Assembly (NCBI RefSeq): GCF_003815535.1
Contig: NZ_RPFZ01000001.1
Span: forward strand, 124,001-188,000
Reading direction: 5' to 3'
Source: Aurantiacibacter spongiae
Lineage (GTDB): Bacteria > Pseudomonadota > Alphaproteobacteria > Sphingomonadales > Sphingomonadaceae
DNA: 64,000 nucleotides
Numbering within the stretch: position 1 is the first letter of the stretch; each line of letters begins with the position of its first letter. A program made the position numbers and the translations under genes. Under the pieces are notes generated by a model that saw nothing but the letters and a program-made list of their open reading frames with translations, had not been told where the DNA came from and ran no database searches. Positions 24,341 to 34,974 of the stretch are shown in pieces.

Positions 24341-25236
<896 letters not shown>

Positions 25237-25345
25237 GAGGGGCGCGCAATGGCCGATGGCCCGTGCAGCGTCAATGGCGCGGGATGGCACGGCGGACCCA
25301 GAACGACTTGACAGCAGGGCGCGGCCCTGCGCCATTCTGCCGCGC

Positions 25346-26329
25346 ATGACAGGGTATGTCCGTCCGGCGCTCGCCGCCGCCGCCGCGCTCGCCGGCCTGC
25401 TGTTGCAGGCCGTCCCCTCCTTCGCCCGGGACAATGCGGGTGAGGCGGTGGACGCGTATGCCTTCACCCAGGATTACGAGCCGGCACCGGCGCTGTGGGA
25501 ATTGTCCGACGAGGACACGACCATCTACATGTTCGGCACGATCCACATGCTGCCGGAAGGGTTCCGCTGGCGCAATCCGCAACTCGACGCGATCATCGAC
25601 ACCGCCGACGCGCTGGTGCTGGAAACGTCCGATGCGGACAGCGTGGAGGACTTCGCCGCGATGGGCGAGAAGTTCGCCACCATCATGGCCGCGCGCACGC
25701 CCACTTCCGAACGACTCTCGCCCGAAGCGCGCGGGAAATGGCGGCAACTGGCGGCGCGCACGGGCATGCCTTTCGATTACATCGATTCGATGCCCCTGAT
25801 GCTGGTATTGATGGATTTCGGCCTCGGCAGGACGCAACCCAACCCCTCGAGCTACGAGAACGGGGTGGAAACGGTGCTCGAGCGCGAATTTCTCGAAAGC
25901 GAACGGCCGGTCGGGTCGATCGAGGATTCCGGTCATGTCCTCTACGGCCTGATGCGGATCGACGACGCGGAGGCGGTGGCCGATCTCGACCGGGCGCTGC
26001 GCAGGTGGTCGGGCAAGCGTGTCGACTCGCTCTATGGAGACGATGCGGACGATGCCGGGGGCGATGGCTACTGGCAGATGGAGCATGACTGGGCACGCGG
26101 CCGGGTCGGCGAGGACTTCGATCTGGGTTTCGGGAGCGGCAAGATCGCGGCGGCGTTTCACGACGTGCTGCTGAACCGGCGCAATACGCGCTGGGCGGCA
26201 TGGCTGGAAAACCGACTCGAGCAACCGGGCACGATCCTGCTTGCGGTCGGGGCGGGCCATTTCGAAGGGTCCGATTCGCTTCTCGAGAAGCTGCGCGAAC
26301 GCGGTTTGCGGGCGCGCCGGATAAATTAG
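25346..26329 (+). CDS. TraB/GumN family protein 1 (exported)
   Basis: A 327-residue GumN/TraB (TIKI-like) protein with a signal peptide ending near FARDN. Family marks: [24 protein letters not shown], which contains the GxxH motif (GTIH, near residue 62), and the C-terminal second motif [20 protein letters not shown]. The superfamily includes metal-dependent proteases (animal TIKI) and bacterial proteins of unknown role; the two conserved histidine motifs are proposed metal ligands. It is the first of three paralogues within 5 kb. An Asp-rich stretch ([11 protein letters not shown]) lies near residue 233. Divergent from glyQ. Confidence 0.82.
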
Positions 26330-26406
26330 TTTCACTGCGAAGCCGCTGATATTGCCCGGTTTTCGGGGCGAAAAGTCATGTCTTTGTGACTTCTTGTCAG
26401 GTGTTG

Positions 26407-26435
26407 TTGACATGGTCAGCAAATCCGGACATAAG
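26407..26435 (+). promoter_or_regulatory. sigma-70-type promoter of the urcA gene
   Basis: A perfect -35 hexamer TTGACA (26407-26412), a 17-base spacer and CATAAG (26430-26435, four of six matches to TATAAT). Transcription would begin near 26442, leaving about a 60-base leader before the ATG at 26501. The octamer ACATAAGG recurs about 20 bases downstream and may be a regulator site. Confidence 0.5.
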
Positions 26436-26500
26436 GTAAGGGCAACCTGACATAAGGGAAGGTTGATTGGACAAAACGACCGGACTACAGGATACGAACC

Positions 26501-26830
26501 ATGCGCAGACTTTCCATTGCCCTCGCCGCCGCTTCCATCGTGCTCGCTGGCCCCGCCCTCGCGGGCCCGGCGACCGACGCCGTCACCATCGACGTGCGGA
26601 CCAGCGACCTCGATCTTACCGACAGTGCCGATCAGGCCCGGCTGGATCGCCGTATCGATACCGCCATCGATCAGGCGTGCCGGACGGGTGGCCGCGATCT
26701 TTCCAGTCGCCGCGCCGAATCCGCATGCCGCGCGGCGTTGAAGGACGCGGCAACGCCGGGTGTCGAACTCGCCATCACCCGGGCCAACACCCGTCATTTC
26801 GCGACGCTCGACCTGGATCCGGGCGCCTGA
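26501..26830 (+). CDS. UrcA family protein (exported)
   Basis: A 109-residue exported protein. The signal peptide (LSIALAAASIVLAGPALA) is followed by the UrcA pattern: TIDVRTSDLDLTDSADQARLDRRIDTAIDQACR with the conserved cysteine, then a second cysteine in AESACRAALKDA. UrcA proteins are abundant in sphingomonads and caulobacters, often in several copies; function is unknown. A good promoter lies 66 bases upstream. The gene ends about 100 bases before the small membrane protein downstream, so it may head that operon. Confidence 0.8.
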   Translation: MRRLSIALAAASIVLAGPALAGPATDAVTIDVRTSDLDLTDSADQARLDRRIDTAIDQACRTGGRDLSSRRAESACRAALKDAATPGVELAITRANTRHFATLDLDPGA

Positions 26831-26927
26831 TTGGCGCGCGATCCATGCGAGACAGGGGTCGGCCACCCATCCAGCCCGGCCGGCCCCGCCCCGCCCTATC
26901 GAATCCACAAGAAGGAACGATCTTTCG

Positions 26928-27317
26928 ATGACTCCGCAGAAACGCGCCAGGTTGTATCTCAGGGCAGCAGTCATGGGGTTCGCCGGAACGGTTCTCTCGA
27001 TCGCCGGCGAAATCTGGCCGCTCCCCGACTTCGTACGCGGATTGGCCGTTGGCATCCTGCTGGTCAGCCTGCTCCTGCTGCTCATACGCAGGTTTCGCGA
27101 CGAGTTCATCGAACAGCTCTGGAATGCGGGCGCTTCGCTCGCCTTCGTGGCGGTCGTCTTCGTCTATCTGTTCGCTCCCTTCGCCGAGGGGGTCGTGGAC
27201 GGCATTTCGGTGGCGGCCCCGCGCCAGGATTTTCTCGCATCCAGCTGGGTCGGTTCGATCGCGCTGCTGGCATTTTTCATCGGCTTTCATATCAAGTGGC
27301 TGCGCGCCAGCCTCTGA
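26928..27317 (+). CDS. small membrane protein, about four helices
   Basis: A 129-residue hydrophobic protein I do not recognise. Four likely transmembrane segments are visible (about residues 13-31, 36-54, 66-86 and 104-124), with a short basic N-terminus. GAAGGAA lies about nine bases before the ATG, which is better than any start in the longer open frame upstream. It is followed after 24 bases by another membrane protein and then a tiny XRE regulator, so it belongs to a membrane-protein/regulator module. Confidence 0.7.
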   Translation: MTPQKRARLYLRAAVMGFAGTVLSIAGEIWPLPDFVRGLAVGILLVSLLLLLIRRFRDEFIEQLWNAGASLAFVAVVFVYLFAPFAEGVVDGISVAAPRQDFLASSWVGSIALLAFFIGFHIKWLRASL

Positions 27318-27341
27318 TCGCCCGGTTCAAGGAAACCCGTC

Positions 27342-27785
27342 ATGGCACTGCATCCCGACAGCTGGCGTTTCGAGAACGCCCGCACGCGCCACCGAGAGCG
27401 GCTTTACTGGCTTACCCTGCTCACGGGGCTCGCGAATGTCGGCGTGCTCGCCCTTTACCTGGCGGACGCGGTGGACAGTATCATCGTGGGCTACATGGTC
27501 GGGGGGATGGCCGGGTCTTTGCTAGCCGCGGGCATACGCGGTCGTTCCGATGGATATTATCAGCAACTGGCCGGGGTCGGGATGCGCTGGACGATGGTCG
27601 TCCTCGGCATTCTGGTCCTCTCCCTGTGGCTCGCAGACACGGGGATAGCGGCGCGATCCACGCCCGTGCTGCCCGTCCTTGCCGGCGATGCCTATCTCGG
27701 GACGCTGATCCTCGCGCTGGCATATCACGCCGGGTACGCCGTGGCTTTCCTGCGTGACCGCCTGACCGCGCGGTCGGGCGGATGA
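27342..27785 (+). CDS. small membrane protein next to XRE regulator
   Basis: A 147-residue membrane protein with four likely helices (about 24-42, 48-66, 81-99, 118-137) and a charged, soluble N-terminus (RFENARTRHRERL). This size and topology are common for membrane proteins cotranscribed with a roughly 65-residue XRE repressor in proteobacteria, though I cannot name a family with certainty. Its stop overlaps the ATG of the XRE gene (ATGA), so the two are coupled, suggesting that they act together, for example with the membrane protein sensing and the XRE protein responding. Confidence 0.72.
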   Translation: MALHPDSWRFENARTRHRERLYWLTLLTGLANVGVLALYLADAVDSIIVGYMVGGMAGSLLAAGIRGRSDGYYQQLAGVGMRWTMVVLGILVLSLWLADTGIAARSTPVLPVLAGDAYLGTLILALAYHAGYAVAFLRDRLTARSGG

Positions 27786-27979
27786 AGAACCGCCTCAAAG
27801 TCCTGCGCGCCGAACGCGACTGGAGCCAGGCGGAGCTTGCCGGCAATCTCGACGTGTCGCGCCAGGCGGTGAACGCCATCGAGACCGGCAAGCACGATCC
27901 GTCGCTGCCGCTCGCCTTTCGCATCGCCCGCCTGTTCGACATGCCCATCGAGGAGATTTTCGATGACGAAGCCGAATGA
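27782..27979 (+). CDS. XRE-family minimal helix-turn-helix regulator
   Basis: A 65-residue protein that is almost entirely one HTH domain: KNRLKVLRAERDWSQAELAG, then VSRQAVNAIETGKHDPSLPLAFRIARLF, and a C-terminal acidic tail (FDDEAE). It belongs to the YozG-like single-domain XRE repressors usually found beside small membrane proteins. It overlaps both neighbours (ATGA upstream; 17 bases with the downstream membrane gene), so all three are likely made from one message. Probably autoregulatory; the operator is not identified. Confidence 0.85.
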   Translation: MKNRLKVLRAERDWSQAELAGNLDVSRQAVNAIETGKHDPSLPLAFRIARLFDMPIEEIFDDEAE

Positions 27980-28391
27980 ACCGGCCCTGAGCGGAGAGGA
28001 ACGCTTCAGGCGCAAGCGCCGCCGATTCTGGGGCTTCTACGTCGCAAGCGTGCTCGCCTCGATGGCGGTCGCCGGAGGTCTGGGTCTTGCCGCCGGACTG
28101 TTCGAGAACGGCGATCTGCCCGGTGGGGCGGTAATCGCCATCTGGATCGCGGCGGTCCTTGGCTTCGCGTGGTTTTCCTGGTGGTGGTTTCGCCGCATCG
28201 ACGAGGTCGACCTGCTCGACAATCTGTGGGCCAGCACCATCGCCTTCTACGCCTATGTCATCGCCTTCGGATCGTGGACGATCCTTGGCGACACGCAGCT
28301 CGTCCCGCCGGTCGATCACGGGCTGATCGCGCTGTTCTCGGTCGGCGTGCTCGTCCTTGCATACCTGGCCCGCAAGCTGGGCCTTCGCTGA
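27963..28391 (+). CDS. small membrane protein following XRE regulator
   Basis: A 142-residue membrane protein with about four hydrophobic segments (near 24-45, 55-73, 85-103 and 115-134) and a basic N-terminus (RFRRKRRRFWGFY). It starts inside the XRE gene, 17 bases before its stop. No family could be named. Composition matches neighbours. Forty-one bases separate it from the next GumN gene. Confidence 0.7.
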   Translation: MTKPNEPALSGEERFRRKRRRFWGFYVASVLASMAVAGGLGLAAGLFENGDLPGGAVIAIWIAAVLGFAWFSWWWFRRIDEVDLLDNLWASTIAFYAYVIAFGSWTILGDTQLVPPVDHGLIALFSVGVLVLAYLARKLGLR

Positions 28392-28432
28392 AATCTGGCG
28401 TATCTGTCATTTCGAACGGGAGTTTTTAGACC

Positions 28433-29431
28433 ATGACCATCAAGACCCTTTCCCCCGCCGCCTCCGGTATTACGCTCGCTCTCGCGCTCGCTCTCGCGCT
28501 CGCTTTCGCGCCGGTCGCGGCGCTCGCGCAGGATGACGCAATTGACCATTCGCAGATGGACCATTCGCAAATGGACCATTCGCAGATGGACCATTCGCAG
28601 ATAGCGCAGAGCACGGTCGAAGCCGCCCTGCCGACCGAGGGCACTCCGGCGCTCTGGCGCCTGTCGGACGAGGATACGACCATCTACCTGTTCGGCACGA
28701 TCCATATTCTGCCCGAAAACGTGAACTGGTTCGACGACCGGCTCGCGACCGCGTTCGATGCCTCCGACGAACTGGTGTTCGAGATCGACATGGATGAGGC
28801 GCAGGCCGCCGGTCCGGCGATGATGCAGCGCGGGATGCTGGAGAACGGGCAGACCGTGCGTTCGCTGATGACCGAGGAAAACCGCGCCGAATACGAGGCC
28901 GCCCTCGCCGATCTGGGCGTTCCCGCGGCCGCCCTCGACCAGTTCGAGCCGTGGATGGTATCGCTCAACCTCTCCATGCTGCCGCTGCTGAAGGCGGGCT
29001 ACCAGCCCGATCAGGGTGTCGAGATGGTGCTGCGCGGCCGGGCCGATGGCAAGGAGCGCGCCGCGCTGGAGACTGTGGATCAGCAGATCGACCTGTTCGA
29101 CACGCTGCCGATGGACAAGCAGCTCGTCTATCTCGACGACGCGGTCGAAGCCGTGCCCGGCATGGTCGATTCGATCGAGAAAATGAAGGTCGAATGGCTC
29201 GAAGGCGATGCCGACGGTCTCGCCGAACTGATGAACGAGGACATGGACGATCCCGAAATCTACGATCTGCTGCTGACCAACCGCAACGCCAACTGGGTCG
29301 ACTGGATCGAGCACCGGCTGGAGGAACCCGGCACGGTGTTCATCGCCGTGGGCGCGGGCCATCTCGCCGGACGCGGCAGCGTGCAGTCGCAGCTGGAAGA
29401 ACGCGGCCATACGGTGTCGCGCGTTCAGTGA
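28433..29431 (+). CDS. TraB/GumN family protein 2 with Met/His repeat
   Basis: A 332-residue exported GumN/TraB protein. The signal peptide hydrophobic core is a tandem LALA repeat; the mature N-terminus carries four DHSQM-type pentapeptides (residues about 38-57), like the Met/His repeats of copper-binding CopA/PcoA proteins. The GumN domain follows: [24 protein letters not shown] with the GTIH motif, and the C-terminal VGAGHLAGRGSVQSQLEERG. It has more Asp/Glu than its paralogues. Its TGA overlaps the GTG of the third paralogue. Metal binding is an inference from the repeat and from TIKI-type metal dependence. Confidence 0.85.
   Translation: MTIKTLSPAASGITLALALALALAFAPVAALAQDDAIDHSQMDHSQMDHSQMDHSQIAQSTVEAALPTEGTPALWRLSDEDTTIYLFGTIHILPENVNWFDDRLATAFDASDELVFEIDMDEAQAAGPAMMQRGMLENGQTVRSLMTEENRAEYEAALADLGVPAAALDQFEPWMVSLNLSMLPLLKAGYQPDQGVEMVLRGRADGKERAALETVDQQIDLFDTLPMDKQLVYLDDAVEAVPGMVDSIEKMKVEWLEGDADGLAELMNEDMDDPEIYDLLLTNRNANWVDWIEHRLEEPGTVFIAVGAGHLAGRGSVQSQLEERGHTVSRVQ
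28475..28510 (+). repeat. 3 x 12-bp tandem repeat in the signal peptide
   Basis: Units CTCGCTCTCGCG at 28475-28486 and 28487-28498, and a one-base variant at 28499-28510, encoding LALA-LALA-LAFA. Gain or loss of a unit by slippage would keep the frame and change the length of the hydrophobic core. Confidence 0.9.
28544..28603 (+). repeat. 4 x 15-bp tandem repeat encoding DHSQM
   Basis: Four consecutive 15-base units (28544-28558, 28559-28573, 28574-28588, 28589-28603) differ at one or two positions and encode DHSQM three times and DHSQI once. The protein repeat resembles methionine/histidine copper-binding motifs. Confidence 0.92.
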
Positions 29432-30306
29432 CCCGGGCGAGGGCGCTTGCGATCCTCCTGACCATCACGGGGGCGCTGTGGCTTTCTGGCTGCGGCGCCC
29501 CCGCCCCATCCGCGCGCGACTGGCCCGCCCCTTCCCCGGCGCTGTGGGAAGTGAACGGCCCCGGCGGGGCGAAGGGCTGGCTGTTCGGCACCGTTCACGC
29601 CCTTCCCGACGCAGTAGCCTGGCGCACGCCCCTGCTGGAAGACAGGCTCGCCCGGGCCGGCCCGCTGGTGGTGGAGATCGCCGATCTCGACGATCCGGCG
29701 GGGCGGGCGCTGTTTCACGAGATGGCCTTCAGCGCGGGCCAGCCCCCGCTCACCTCGCGCGTCGATGCCGCGCATCGCCCGGCCCTGAAACGCCTCATGC
29801 AGCAAAACGATGCGAAGGACGGTGACTTTGCCGGGGTGGAAAGCTGGGGCGCGGCGCTGTTGCTGGGCAGCTGCGTTCGAACCGGCGATCCCGCCAACGG
29901 AGTCGACCGCGCGCTGATCGCCGGGGCGGACGAGGTGATCGGCCTGGAAAGCTTCGCCGGGCAATATGCGATCTTCGATGCTTTGCCTGCCAAGGCCCAG
30001 TCGGACCTGCTGCTCGCCGTCGCGACGGAGGCCGAGGCGGCCGACCCCGACGGTGCCGTGCGCGACTGGCTGACCGGTAACGAAGCCGCGCTCGACCGGC
30101 GCCTGAATGCCGGCGTGCTGGCCTTTCCCGACCTGCGCCGCGCGCTGCTCGAACGCCGCAACAAGGCCTGGACCGCGCGCATTGCCGACCTGGTCAACGA
30201 CGGTCGCCGTCCGTTCGTCGCCGTCGGCGCGGGGCACCTGGTGGGCGATACGGGCCTGCCCGTGCTCCTTCGCGAACGCGGCTTTACCGTCCGCCGCATC
30301 CAGTAG
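29428..30306 (+). CDS. TraB/GumN family lipoprotein 3
   Basis: A 292-residue GumN/TraB protein. GTG start overlaps the previous stop; the signal sequence ends in the lipobox LSGC (cysteine near residue 20), so it is probably a lipoprotein. Domain marks: [25 protein letters not shown] with GTVH, and C-terminal [20 protein letters not shown]. The DEDT found in paralogues 1 and 2 is replaced by PGGA, so it is the most diverged of the three. Coupled translation with paralogue 2 suggests that they work together. Confidence 0.8.
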
Positions 30307-31588: not shown

Positions 31589-32158
31589 ATGCAGCTCTGG
31601 GTGGGTCTCGGAAATCCCGGTCCGCGCTATGCGATGCACCGGCACAATGTCGGGTTCATGGCACTCGACGTCATCGCCGACATGCACGGCTTCGGTACCG
31701 TGCAGACCAAGTTTCAAGGCTGGTTCCAGGAAGGCCGCATCGGCAGCGACAGGATCGCGCTGCTGAAGCCCGCCACCTTCATGAACGAAAGCGGCCGCAG
31801 CGTCGGCGAGGCGATGCGCTTCTACAAGATCGGTCCGGACGCGCTGACCGTCTTCCATGACGAACTCGATCTGGCTCCGTTCAAGGTAAAGGTGAAGCAG
31901 GGCGGCGGCCATGCCGGGCATAACGGTCTGCGCTCCATCGACAGCCATTGCGGCCCGGACTTCCGGCGCGTACGCATCGGAATCGGTCATCCGGGCAGCA
32001 AGGACCGCGTGAACGGGCACGTTCTCGGCAATTACGCCAGGACGGAGCAGGACGATCTCGCGCAGATGCTCGGCGCGGTGGCAGCCGAGGCAGACCGACT
32101 GGCCGAGCACGACGATGCCCGCTTCATGAGCGACGTCGCGCTGCGCATGCAGGACTGA
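31589..32158 (+). CDS. pth: peptidyl-tRNA hydrolase
   Basis: A 189-residue enzyme that frees tRNA from prematurely released peptidyl-tRNA. LWVGLGNPGPRYAMHRHNVGF at residues 3-23 carries catalytic H19; other marks are KPATFMNESGRSV, the catalytic aspartate in FHDELDL, and GGGHAGHNGLRSI. Length is normal. GAAAGGCGG lies upstream of the ATG. It ends the rplY operon; its usual partner ychF is 1.7 kb further on, separated here by a PEP-CTERM gene and a TPR gene. Confidence 0.95.
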   Translation: MQLWVGLGNPGPRYAMHRHNVGFMALDVIADMHGFGTVQTKFQGWFQEGRIGSDRIALLKPATFMNESGRSVGEAMRFYKIGPDALTVFHDELDLAPFKVKVKQGGGHAGHNGLRSIDSHCGPDFRRVRIGIGHPGSKDRVNGHVLGNYARTEQDDLAQMLGAVAAEADRLAEHDDARFMSDVALRMQD

Positions 32159-32242
32159 CGCGGGAAACAGGTGTCGGGTTTCCTGACAGCACGAGGCGAT
32201 CCGCAGCGTCGTTAACCATCGCACCGCGCGCGATCCGGCGAC

Positions 32243-32258
32243 TGGCACGTGGGTTGCA
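32243..32258 (+). promoter_or_regulatory. sigma-54 (RpoN) -24/-12 promoter of the PEP-CTERM gene
   Basis: TGGCACG (32243-32249), four bases, then TTGCA (32254-32258) matches the RpoN consensus TGGCACG-N4-TTGCW at every fixed position, with the GG and GC pairs ten bases apart as required. Start of transcription would be near 32269, 30 bases before the ATG. A dyad TGTC...GACA at 32172-32188 lies about 55 bases further upstream and might bind an activator. Confidence 0.75.
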
Positions 32259-32265
32259 TCCCCTC

Positions 32266-32297
32266 GCGATAACCAAATCGCTGCAGGGGGTTATCGC
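32266..32297 (+). promoter_or_regulatory. inverted repeat around the ribosome-binding site
   Basis: GCGATAAC (32266-32273) is repeated inverted as GTTATCGC (32290-32297), directly before the ATG at 32299, with the Shine-Dalgarno AGGGGG at 32285-32290 in the loop and stem base. It could limit translation or serve as an operator. The predicted start near 32269 would leave only part of the left arm in the RNA. Confidence 0.4.
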
Positions 32298-32298
32298 C

Positions 32299-32637
32299 AT
32301 GAAGACCAGGTCCGCCGCCATCGCCATCTCGTTCGTCGCCCTGTCTCTGGCAGCGCCGGCCCATGCCACCTGGGGATGGGGATGGGGCTCGGGCGGCTGG
32401 GGCCACACGCATTACAGCGGTTGCGGGCATACCGGCTCTTCGACCTCGACCGGATCGACCAGCAGCACCTCTGGCGGATCGACCACCGGCAGCTCCACCA
32501 GCTCCACGAGTTCGACGACAACGGGCGGATCGACCGGCGGAACGCAGGTGCCCGAGCCTGGCGGGCTGGGCCTGATGGCGGCGGCCCTTCTCGGCCTCGG
32601 CCTGGCGCGCCGCCGCCGGCAGCAATTGACCGCCTGA
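32299..32637 (+). CDS. PEP-CTERM sorting-signal protein
   Basis: A 112-residue exported protein. A signal peptide ending in AHA is followed by a short Trp/Gly-rich piece (TWGWGWGSGGWGHTHYSG), a low-complexity Ser/Thr/Gly linker of about 45 residues, and the C-terminal signal VPEPGGLGLMAAALLGLGLARRRR. This last tripartite motif (PEP, hydrophobic helix, basic tail) is the substrate tag of exosortase. Such proteins are anchored to or exported through the envelope and are tied to exopolysaccharide production and aggregation. No exosortase lies in the window. A sigma-54 promoter precedes it. Confidence 0.9.
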   Translation: MKTRSAAIAISFVALSLAAPAHATWGWGWGSGGWGHTHYSGCGHTGSSTSTGSTSSTSGGSTTGSSTSSTSSTTTGGSTGGTQVPEPGGLGLMAAALLGLGLARRRRQQLTA

Positions 32638-32646
32638 AGGTTTCCG

Positions 32647-33756
32647 TCAGCGCGCCGCCAGCCGGGCGGCGAGGCGCCTGATCGCCTCGGGCGCGTCGGC
32701 ACGCACCGCCAGCGGCGCCACGACCTCCCGCGCCTGCGCGGCCTGCCCTGTCTCGATCAGCACCTCCGCATAGATGCGCGCGATCAGCGGGTTGTCGGGA
32801 TGCTGGCGCCAGACCGGCACGATCTGGGCGCGGGCCTGCTCGGGCTGGCCCGCTTCGAGCAGCGCCTTGGCGTAGAGCGCGCGCGAATCGGGATGATCGG
32901 CGATCAGGTTTTCGTTGCGCTGAAACAGCGTTCGCACCCCCGCCCAGTCGCCGGCTTCGGCCTTCAGCCGCGCGGCCAGAAACAGGAATTCGGCGTCGCG
33001 CGGATAGGCCTCCGCCCCCCGCAGAACGAGCGGGCGGAGCAGATCCATCCGCCCCAGCGCGCCCAGTTCGGCGATCGCGCCGAGCAGCGCGGGCCGATCA
33101 AGAGGGGCAATGTCGAGGATCGCCAGAAAGGCGCGCGAGGCCAGGTCATGCTCTCCATCCAGCTGCGCGAGGCGGCCGGTCACGTAAAGCGTCTCGATCC
33201 GGTCCGGCGCTTCGGCCTGCGCCCGGCGCACCGCCGGTCGCGCCCCGTCCGCATCGCCGCGGGCGAGATACCAGGAGGCTTCCGCCGCGTGGAGACGCGA
33301 CCGGTCCCCCCAGGCCTGCCGGCCTTGTGCGAAGGCAATCCGGGCCGCTGCCTCCTCGCCCTGCATGTCCGCCGCCAGCGCGCGAAGACGCCAGCTGTCC
33401 GCGCTGTCCTGACCGCGCAGCAGCCGCTCGGTTGCGGCGGTATCGCCAGTCTGAAGGTGCCCTTCGGCGGCGAGCAGCGCCGCGTCGTCCGGACGCTCGC
33501 CGGTCCTGTCGAGGCGCCCCAGCGTCGCCAGCGCCGCCTCGCCCCGCCCCATCGCGATCTGCGCCCGGGCAAGCAGGGCGAGAGCCGGGACGTTGCGGGC
33601 ATCATCTCCCAGCGCAGCCTGCGCCTGCTGTCCGGCGGTTATGTAATCCTGTTTCGCGTAGGCATCCTGCGCTGCGGCCAGGTGATTGTCCTGCGCCGCC
33701 GAACAGGCGGCCAGGGCGGCGGCGAAGGCGACGGACCACAGGGTGCGGGCAGGCAT
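32647..33756 (-). CDS. TPR-repeat lipoprotein
   Basis: A 369-residue protein of tandem helical repeats. The start MPARTLWSVAFAAALAACSAA gives a lipoprotein signal with LAAC (cysteine near residue 18). Repeats of the tetratricopeptide type run through the rest (for example NVPALALLARAQIAMGRGEAALATL and ALYAKALLEAGQPEQARAQI). It may be an assembly scaffold in the envelope; related proteins (PrsT) accompany PEP-CTERM systems, but this link is weak here. It converges on the PEP-CTERM gene with nine bases between stops. Confidence 0.72.
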   Translation of the reverse strand: MPARTLWSVAFAAALAACSAAQDNHLAAAQDAYAKQDYITAGQQAQAALGDDARNVPALALLARAQIAMGRGEAALATLGRLDRTGERPDDAALLAAEGHLQTGDTAATERLLRGQDSADSWRLRALAADMQGEEAAARIAFAQGRQAWGDRSRLHAAEASWYLARGDADGARPAVRRAQAEAPDRIETLYVTGRLAQLDGEHDLASRAFLAILDIAPLDRPALLGAIAELGALGRMDLLRPLVLRGAEAYPRDAEFLFLAARLKAEAGDWAGVRTLFQRNENLIADHPDSRALYAKALLEAGQPEQARAQIVPVWRQHPDNPLIARIYAEVLIETGQAAQAREVVAPLAVRADAPEAIRRLAARLAAR

Positions 33757-33873
33757 GCCCTGCTTCTGGCACGAAAGCGCAAACATTCGATGAAACGCGC
33801 GGTGCTTCCCCTCCCCGGCCATCGCGGCTAAGGCGCGGCACGACAGTTCAAACGCATCCAGAAGGTATCAAGC

Positions 33874-34974
33874 ATGGGATTCCGCTGCGGGATCGTGGGC
33901 TTGCCCAATGTCGGCAAGTCGACCCTTTTCAACGCCCTTACCGAAACGCAGGCCGCGCAGGCTGCCAACTATCCGTTCTGCACGATCGAGCCGAATGTCG
34001 GCCAGGTCGCCGTGCCCGACGAACGGCTGGAGAAGATCGCCGGTATCGCCGGCAGCGCGAAGGTCGTCCACACGCAGCTTTCGTTCGTCGACATCGCCGG
34101 TCTGGTAAAGGGCGCGAGCGCGGGCGAGGGTCTTGGCAACCAGTTCCTCGGCAATATCCGCGAGGTCGACGCCATCGTTCACGTCCTGCGTTGTTTCGAG
34201 GACGACGATATCCAGCATGTCTCCAACACCGTCGACCCGATCGCCGATGCCGAGGTGGTGGAGACCGAACTGATGCTCGCCGATCTGGAAAGCCTGGAAA
34301 AGCGCGTTCCCAATGCGCAGAAGCGCGCGACGGGCGGGGACAAGGAAGCGAAGATCATGGCCAGCGTGCTCGGCCAGGCGCTGGACCTGCTGCGCGACGG
34401 CAAGCCCGCCCGCCTGACCGAACCGCAGGATGACGAGGAAGCGCGCATCTTCGCACAGGCACAGCTGCTGACCGCCAAGCCTGTCCTGTACGTCTGCAAC
34501 GTCGGCGAGGACGAGGCGGCGAGCGGCAATGCCATGAGCGAGAAGGTCTTTGCCAAAGCCGATGCAGAGGGGGCGGAGGCGGTGGTCGTGTCCGCCGCGA
34601 TCGAAGCCGAACTGGTCGGCATGGAGCCGGAGGAGCGGCGCGAGTATCTTAGCGAGCTGGGTCTGGAGGAAACCGGCCTGGCCCGGGTCATCCGCGCCGG
34701 ATACCAGCTGCTCGGGCTCAAGACATTCTTCACCGCCGGCCCCAAGGAAGCGCGCGCCTGGACCTGCCCGCAGGACGCCAGGGCCCCGCAGGCGGCGGGC
34801 GAAATCCATACCGATTTCGAAAAGGGTTTCATCCGCGCCGAGACCATCGCCTTCGATGATTACGTCGAACTGGGGGGCGAGAGCGCCGCGCGCGAAGCGG
34901 GAAAATTGCGGCAGGAAGGCAAGGACTATCTGGTGAAGGATGGCGACGTCATGCTGTTCAAGTTCAATGTCTAG
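33874..34974 (+). CDS. ychF: redox-regulated ATPase YchF (Obg family)
   Basis: A 366-residue Obg-family protein that binds ATP in preference to GTP. G1 is GIVGLPNVGKSTLFNALT near residues 6-22, G3 is DIAGLVKGAS near 71-80, and the G4 is altered as usual for YchF (YVCNVGED near residue 206). The C-terminal TGS domain begins FFTAGPKEARAW and ends VKDGDVMLFKFNV, a family hallmark. Complete. Its TAG stop shares the four bases CTAG with the stop of the converging DUF2167 gene. Confidence 0.96.
   Translation: MGFRCGIVGLPNVGKSTLFNALTETQAAQAANYPFCTIEPNVGQVAVPDERLEKIAGIAGSAKVVHTQLSFVDIAGLVKGASAGEGLGNQFLGNIREVDAIVHVLRCFEDDDIQHVSNTVDPIADAEVVETELMLADLESLEKRVPNAQKRATGGDKEAKIMASVLGQALDLLRDGKPARLTEPQDDEEARIFAQAQLLTAKPVLYVCNVGEDEAASGNAMSEKVFAKADAEGAEAVVVSAAIEAELVGMEPEERREYLSELGLEETGLARVIRAGYQLLGLKTFFTAGPKEARAWTCPQDARAPQAAGEIHTDFEKGFIRAETIAFDDYVELGGESAAREAGKLRQEGKDYLVKDGDVMLFKFNV

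Follow-up and report, generated by a model that had tools for sequence, protein, structure and literature searches.

The question raised by this locus is what switches on a short PEP-CTERM gene that stands singly between pth and a convergent TPR gene, behind an upstream region of only 140 nt. The window, that is the whole stretch analysed, is a 64,000-nt part (C1:124001-188000) of a 2.86-Mb genome (G000). The features that bear on the question are the following.

31589-32158, plus strand: presumed pth (peptidyl-tRNA hydrolase), upstream neighbour of the PEP-CTERM gene
32172-32188, plus strand: predicted PrsR activator site (Haft 'motif 1'), TGTCGGGTTTCCTGACA, 17 bp, based on spacing, relatives and shuffles
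32211-32219, plus strand: GTTAACCAT box, candidate CtrA half-site, with 25 nt between its TTAACC and the TGG of the core
32243-32258, plus strand: putative sigma-54 (-24/-12) promoter core, TGGCACGTGGGTTGCA, an exact match in a genome with RpoN
32269-32275, plus strand: predicted transcription start with the element ATAACCA, +1 at about 32269 as counted from the -12 C
32299-32637, plus strand: PEP-CTERM gene, 112 aa, from the open reading frame and TIGR02595/PF07589 profile matches
32647-33822, minus strand: TPR gene, convergent to the PEP-CTERM gene, 391 aa when counted from its first ATG, probably a distant PrsT relative
33874-34974, plus strand: presumed ychF, downstream neighbour

The names pth and ychF follow the sequence-only reading. 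The 112-aa protein consists of a signal-like N-terminus (MKTRSAAIAISFVALSLAAPAHA, judged by eye to resemble a signal peptide), a Trp/Gly/His/Cys-containing head, a Ser/Thr/Gly linker, VPEP, a hydrophobic stretch and an RRRR tail. The sequence-only reading of a short PEP-CTERM protein with such a linker was borne out, as the linker comprised 38 residues that were exclusively Ser, Thr and Gly (15, 14 and 9, respectively) and the C-terminal PEP-CTERM domain scored above the cut-offs of both TIGR02595 (24.2 bits, cut-off 16) and PF07589 (23.6 bits, curated cut-off 20.7). The flocculation PepA model NF033554 had the best E-value for this protein, yet its score of 35.7 bits was far below the cut-off of 80. 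The TPR protein, in which a lipobox-like LAAC was seen by eye, scored 60.8 bits against the PrsT model TIGR02917, far under the cut-off of 312.2, and would be a short and distant PrsT relative.

The PEP-CTERM gene had been described as lying in an isolated location, which proved to be a misreading. The loci of 29 relatives (L065-L093) were compared, and in 21 the PEP-CTERM match has pth, the TPR gene or ychF at a distance of about 1.5 kb or less, pth in 15 and a TPR homologue in 14. An isolated insertion was ruled out because the place of the gene, with the same neighbours, recurs among relatives.

The sigma-54 consensus is TGGCACG-N4-TTGCW. The sequence TGGCACG-N4-TTGCA at 32243-32258 matches this consensus in full and is located 40 bases (32259-32298) ahead of the ATG at 32299, as had been noted from the letters. 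Counted alone, the -24/-12 element was at chance level in the window (1 match with at most one mismatch vs 1.33 expected) and in the whole genome, where four exact TGGCACNNNNNTTGCW sites were found and the reversed pattern also gave four. Such counts speak for a chance match at a gene under an ordinary sigma-70-type promoter, a reading that we hold to be extremely improbable since the position, spacing and activator site are conserved at homologous genes across many genera, and since a wrong-spacing control of the composite pattern described below was found at 1 place vs 50. A chance occurrence was rejected on account of this conserved context. The other three exact cores of the genome were located before the gene of an 83-aa membrane protein (C1:847119), before a PII-type gene (C1:1327409) and upstream of pspA (C1:2295270).

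Haft et al. 2006 (PMC1569441) predicted a 17-nt motif ending in TTTACA together with a sigma-54 motif before proteobacterial PEP-CTERM genes. The spacer between the two motifs averages 62.8 nt there with a range of 32-92 nt, a few of the predicted sites stand before other genes, and the phylogenetic profile of the two-motif element equals that of PrsR, PrsK and PrsT. The activator site at 32172-32188 reads TGTCGG-N5-CTGACA, which is an imperfect inverted repeat (TGTC-N9-GACA), and is separated from the core by 54 nt, inside the published range. Compared over the 3' end, the site (CTGACA) is two letters off the published TTTACA. The clade form of the site was [TC]GTCGG-N5-[CT]TTACA / TTGACA. 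A pattern of activator site plus core, which was devised after viewing the relatives, matched once in the window and never in 100 shuffles. The site and core fit the arrangement predicted in the text of PMC1569441.

The genome encodes the proteins that such a promoter would call for. Profile searches identified PrsR (TIGR02915, C1:278831-280165, 669 bits, cut-off 502.6), PrsK (TIGR02916, 498 bits, cut-off 300) and, adjoining prsK and prsR, the EpsB2 sugar transferase (TIGR03013, 490 bits, above cut-off), as well as RpoN (PF04552, 216.8 bits, cut-off 22.8). XrtA (TIGR03109, 327.3 bits vs cut-off 208) was the sole exosortase above its cut-off and is encoded at the start of the contig (L024), surrounded by XrtA-type EPS genes. 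The XrtA, PrsK/PrsR and RpoN that the sequence-only reading had wanted sought in the genome were thus all found above their cut-offs, and its refutation by a genome without activator or exosortase fails. Control of the EPS genes by the same promoter was considered, and a scan of L024 gave no high-scoring site ahead of any of its EPS genes.

We propose that the PEP-CTERM gene is an XrtA/PEP-CTERM cargo gene switched on by sigma-54 polymerase via PrsR, and put the probability of this reading at about 0.87. Phosphorylated PrsR, the partner of PrsK, would bind the 17-bp site at 32172-32188 and contact an RpoN-polymerase held closed at 32243-32258, the RpoN requirement and the start site being predictions from the promoter. 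After secretion XrtA would presumably process the PEP-CTERM protein at VPEP, and the product would reach the EPS layer at the cell surface. The core, the activator site and the system proteins together support, at the level of sequence, the earlier proposal that the gene belongs to a PrsK/PrsR/RpoN-type regulon. Points against it are the chance-level count of the core taken singly, the deviating CTGACA end of the site and the score of the TPR protein below the PrsT cut-off.

The sigma-54 core could instead be real but driven by another enhancer-binding protein, for example one acting in nitrogen or envelope stress. Counting PrsR itself, the genome has five proteins that match the PrsR model over its sigma-54 activator region, and the others are presumably NtrC/NtrX-like, PspF-like and one further activator at 2574045. 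Two of the other exact cores stand at genes of this kind. The core at C1:1327409-1327424 (L003:1501-1516) precedes a PII-type gene (L003 1114-1452, minus strand, identified by reading), and that at C1:2295270-2295285 (L004:1501-1516) is located upstream of pspA (TIGR02977, 269.4 bits, cut-off 242.95), divergent from an activator named PspF-like by its position, which is an ordinary phage-shock arrangement. Neither promoter has the site-plus-core pattern or the TTAACC composite; the composite was absent at the PII-type gene, whose promoter is typical of nitrogen control. Both elements are present at the PEP-CTERM gene and at the gene of the 83-aa protein, and the site agrees with the PrsR motif in the passages of PMC1569441 in length (17 nt), spacer and most of the 3' end. 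Control by another activator is accordingly judged improbable, and PrsR is retained as the predicted activator.

A scattered regulon under one activator had been suggested from the window, and the scatter is borne out in the genome, where one predicted member lies at 156 kb and the other at 847 kb, with xrtA at 11 kb and prsKR at 279 kb. Two genes of the genome exceeded the PF07589 cut-off, and the expectation that PEP-CTERM genes would have the -24/-12 element held for the 112-aa gene, the only one with a PrsR/sigma-54-type promoter, and did not hold for the other (C1:1988745), upstream of which a sigma-54 site was not found; this counts against the regulon reading. The second gene (L033:8690-9862, about C1:1987689-1988861) has VPAPG, a 390-aa frame and a long Ser/Thr/Asn/Gln linker. 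About 80 nt upstream of the first start of this frame there is a TTAACCA on the opposite strand.

Relatives of the 112-aa protein were found in 53 of 149 family genomes and 30 loci (L064-L093, own locus included) were examined. These were picked by the protein alone; the PEP frame was present in 28, and that of L079 is evidently wrong. The activator site and core occurred together by rule in 15 of the 30 loci, and in 18 by reading when L066, L074 and L081 are added. In the rule-positive loci the spacer was 53-54 nt in 13 and 65-66 nt in two (L077 and L086). No site-plus-core pair, by rule or by reading, stood before the gene in the remaining 12 of the 30 loci, which counts against the PrsR/sigma-54 reading. 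These 12 include L069, from a genome lacking PrsR, and L085 and L090, which have a site plus core elsewhere in the locus; L090 comes from the PrsR-negative genome G070.

A composite pattern, TTAACC-N23-26-TGGC-N7-TTGCW, was scanned in the 149 family genomes and occurred at 50 places in 39 of them, compared with 2 places for the reversed pattern, 1 for the control with wrong spacing (N8 in the core) and 6 for the reversed version of that control. The own genome had two places only. By rule, 20 of the 50 places precede PEP-CTERM genes and 26 precede small-protein genes (46 in all); L166 and L173 join these classes by reading (48 of 50) while L120 and L156 are unrelated. The gene met most often at these composites was that of a small two-helix protein. 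The two classes differ in the activator spacer by about one helical turn: for the PEP-CTERM composites it was 53-54 nt in 14 and 42 and 44 nt once each, with no rule-site in four, and for the small-protein composites 42-44 nt in 24, with no rule-site in two.

PrsR was detected at E <= 1e-130 in 127 of the 149 genomes, 126 of them above the cut-off. The composite was present in 38 of the 127 vs 1 of the 22 others (two-sided p 0.016, kinship ignored). Two results stand against the PrsR/sigma-54 reading here, namely the sole PrsR-negative genome with a composite (G070, an assembly in 200 contigs) and the 89 PrsR-positive genomes in which the strict composite was not found. The latter do not prove absence because the strict pattern misses variants.

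The predicted second regulon member in the own genome is the gene of an 83-aa two-helix membrane protein (L031:9162-9413, C1:847161-847412), located between astB (NF009789, 458 bits, cut-off 452) and the tmRNA gene (ssrA). Its promoter has a TTAACC box and an exact sigma-54 core, which the activator site CGTCGGGTGGCTTTACA precedes by 43 nt, so that both promoters of the own genome combine the site-plus-core pattern with the composite. At least 497 relatives of the small protein were found in genome_contigs and the best 80 were sampled, all from Sphingomonadaceae/Erythrobacteraceae genera or less finely placed MAGs. An astB-like homologue was present in 54 of these best 80 loci and the tmRNA in 71. 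The protein is mostly about 77-90 aa long, and the residues invariant in both alignments include L8, F9, K12, E16, A17, R31, G32, P40, G41 and D64. Searches of Pfam and NCBIfam with the small protein returned no match. An AlphaFold2 model was a two-helix hairpin (H14-38 and H42-77, mean pLDDT 84), and of its two hydropathy maxima the first is weak, at 1.4, and the other reaches 1.9.

Within 250 nt before the small gene, 54 of the best 80 loci had both site and core, three the site only, two the core only and 21 neither. The Fisher value for the association of site and core (4.6e-14, kinship uncorrected) is descriptive, since these loci share ancestry and were themselves the source of the site pattern. 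The activator site occurred in 57 of the 80 vs a mean of 0.08 in shuffled upstream regions, and in loci with site and core the spacer was 42-44 nt in 53 of 54 and 54 nt in one. Because this promoter is shared with PEP-CTERM genes, a role of the small protein in the exosortase pathway is suggested. In the 50 genomes compared, which hold 50 of the best 80 loci, PrsR exceeded its cut-off in 24 of the 25 whose small gene has a strong core and in 22 of the 25 where such a core is missing. PrsR loss as the cause of missing small-gene promoters was therefore unsupported, and the promoter is evidently lost for other reasons, which also counts against the PrsR/sigma-54 reading.

A third element lies between activator site and core. 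The sequence TTAACCAT occurs exactly at 32212-32219, and in the family most promoters of this type have a box resembling it, which precedes the -24 element by 24-25 nt. In the best 80 small-gene loci TTAACC occurred in 46 upstream regions vs 2.66 in shuffles, with a gap to the core of 25 nt in 32 loci, 24 nt in six and 37 nt in one. At least six of the eight TTAACCAT letters were present at a gap of 24 or 25 nt in 48 of 56 core-bearing small-protein loci, against a background of 1.4% of positions. The GTTAACCAT box, whose position between the activator site and the core hardly varies, probably adds a second input.

Alternatively, the TTAACCAT box could be part of the PrsR recognition unit or an RNA-polymerase contact and not the site of a separate regulator, a reading with a substantial chance of being right although it falls somewhat short of even odds. 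In its favour, box and core keep an almost constant distance of 24-25 nt where the activator site shifts by about 11 nt between the gene classes, and TTAACC mostly accompanies the site and core (40 of 46 loci). The exact TTAACC is nevertheless missing in 14 of the 54 loci with site and core, which on reading resolved into seven with a one-letter variant in place, four with a shifted TTTACCAT and three with nothing. Six loci keep TTAACC without core or site, though these resemble decayed promoters, and the passages of PMC1569441 describe two motifs only, with a variable spacer.

If a separate regulator does read GTTAACCAT, CtrA would be the best candidate. Passages of PMC6180460 give TTAACCAT as the ungapped CtrA motif and describe half-sites over the -10 region as repressive. 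The alphaproteobacterial half-site promoters treated there resemble the present one in TTAACCAT and in TTAA/AACC near the predicted start, and differ in that their CtrA sites lie at -35/-10 whereas the candidate sites here flank a sigma-54 core. In 291 kb of own sequence, 14.5% of it non-gene, TTAACCA stood outside predicted genes in five of seven cases (one-sided p 0.001), but two of these five belong to the PEP-CTERM and small-protein promoters, on whose account the stretches around them had been selected. With the letters rearranged, three 7-mers were outside predicted genes in 0 of 10, 1 of 9 and 3 of 8 cases. The non-gene bias fits, but does not establish, a promoter-bound regulator such as CtrA. 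CtrA was not recognised by eye among five receiver-domain loci (L013-L017).

Promoters of this type in the family often show TTAA or AACC at the predicted start, about 10 nt past the core. Of the 20 PEP-CTERM composite sites, 11 have AACC at a distance of 10-13 nt from the core, and of the 26 small-protein composite sites, 19 have TTAA at a distance of 9-11 nt. Among the 56 core-bearing small-gene loci, which were chosen by protein, TTAA lay 9-11 nt past the core in 26 and no TTAA followed in 24. A perfect 9-bp inverted repeat (GCGATAACC / GGTTATCGC, 32266-32274/32289-32297) reaches from the predicted start to within one base of the ATG. A special hairpin of the mRNA leader at 32266-32297 was rejected, as folding was not unusual (z 0.07) and the repeat was not seen by eye in those leaders of relatives that were read.

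These elements allow a two-input gate to be imagined, in which PrsK/PrsR pass an EPS or envelope signal through sigma-54 while CtrA, bound at GTTAACCAT and the start element, limits expression to a single stage of the cell cycle or a single type of cell, and in which the protein of about 80 aa is a part of the exosortase pathway or of its feedback on PrsK. Taken as a whole this scheme is speculative and rather doubtful. Were the extra box indeed read by CtrA, the sorting of surface proteins would be linked to the cell cycle.

Control of PEP-CTERM genes by RpoN with PrsK/PrsR in floc-forming bacteria had been called known. For Aquincola tertiaricarbonis RN12 the passages of PMC9850573 support the RpoN part of this, as RpoN dependence of pepA is experimental, while control by PrsK-PrsR is called probable only. 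A prsK insertion abolished flocs there, plasmid-borne prsK or prsK-prsR failed to restore them, and the authors in 2023 still ask for experiments on the mechanism. The present locus is like Aquincola pepA in having an RpoN-type PEP-CTERM gene beside a TPR gene (prsT there) and an epsB2-prsK-prsR cluster in the genome. It differs in the weak score of its protein against the floc PepA model (35.7 bits, with the cut-off at 80) and in the TPR gene, which is convergent and short.

Compared with the element described in the passages of PMC1569441, the likeness lies in the 17-nt motif, an in-range spacer (54 nt), the -24/-12 sequence, the presence of PrsK and PrsR in the genome and the solitary position of the gene between pth and a convergent neighbour. 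The differences are the extra TTAACCAT box and start-site element, spacers that cluster near 43, 54 and, in two cases, 65 nt, and the activator site TGTCGG-N5-CTGACA within an upstream region of just 140 nt. The 80-aa membrane protein predicted here as a target goes unmentioned in the same passages. A PEP-CTERM gene under a predicted PrsR/sigma-54 promoter is of a known kind and, on the sequences, well supported. As far as the literature was searched, the apparent clade-level promoter variant with its third box, the spacer phasing and the putative second regulon member are new; neither the TTAACC box nor the small protein as a target appeared in titles and abstract openings of the open-licence literature on PEP-CTERM, exosortase, PrsK/PrsR and CtrA. 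The site, its phasing on the helix near 43, 54 and 65 nt, and the third element are sharp enough for tests by a few base changes. The conserved small membrane protein, whose gene has the common promoter, is a specific candidate for a component of the exosortase system that has so far escaped notice.

Elsewhere in the window, the open reading frames at 25202-26329, 28433-29431 and 28951-30306 have a common PALW-x-FGT-[IV]-H-x-LP ... VGAGHL pattern. These frames (25202-30306), presumably TraB/GumN-like, are apparently tandem copies. A short repeat at 28433-28700, within an open reading frame, encodes DHSQMDHSQMDHSQMDHSQ close to the N-terminus.
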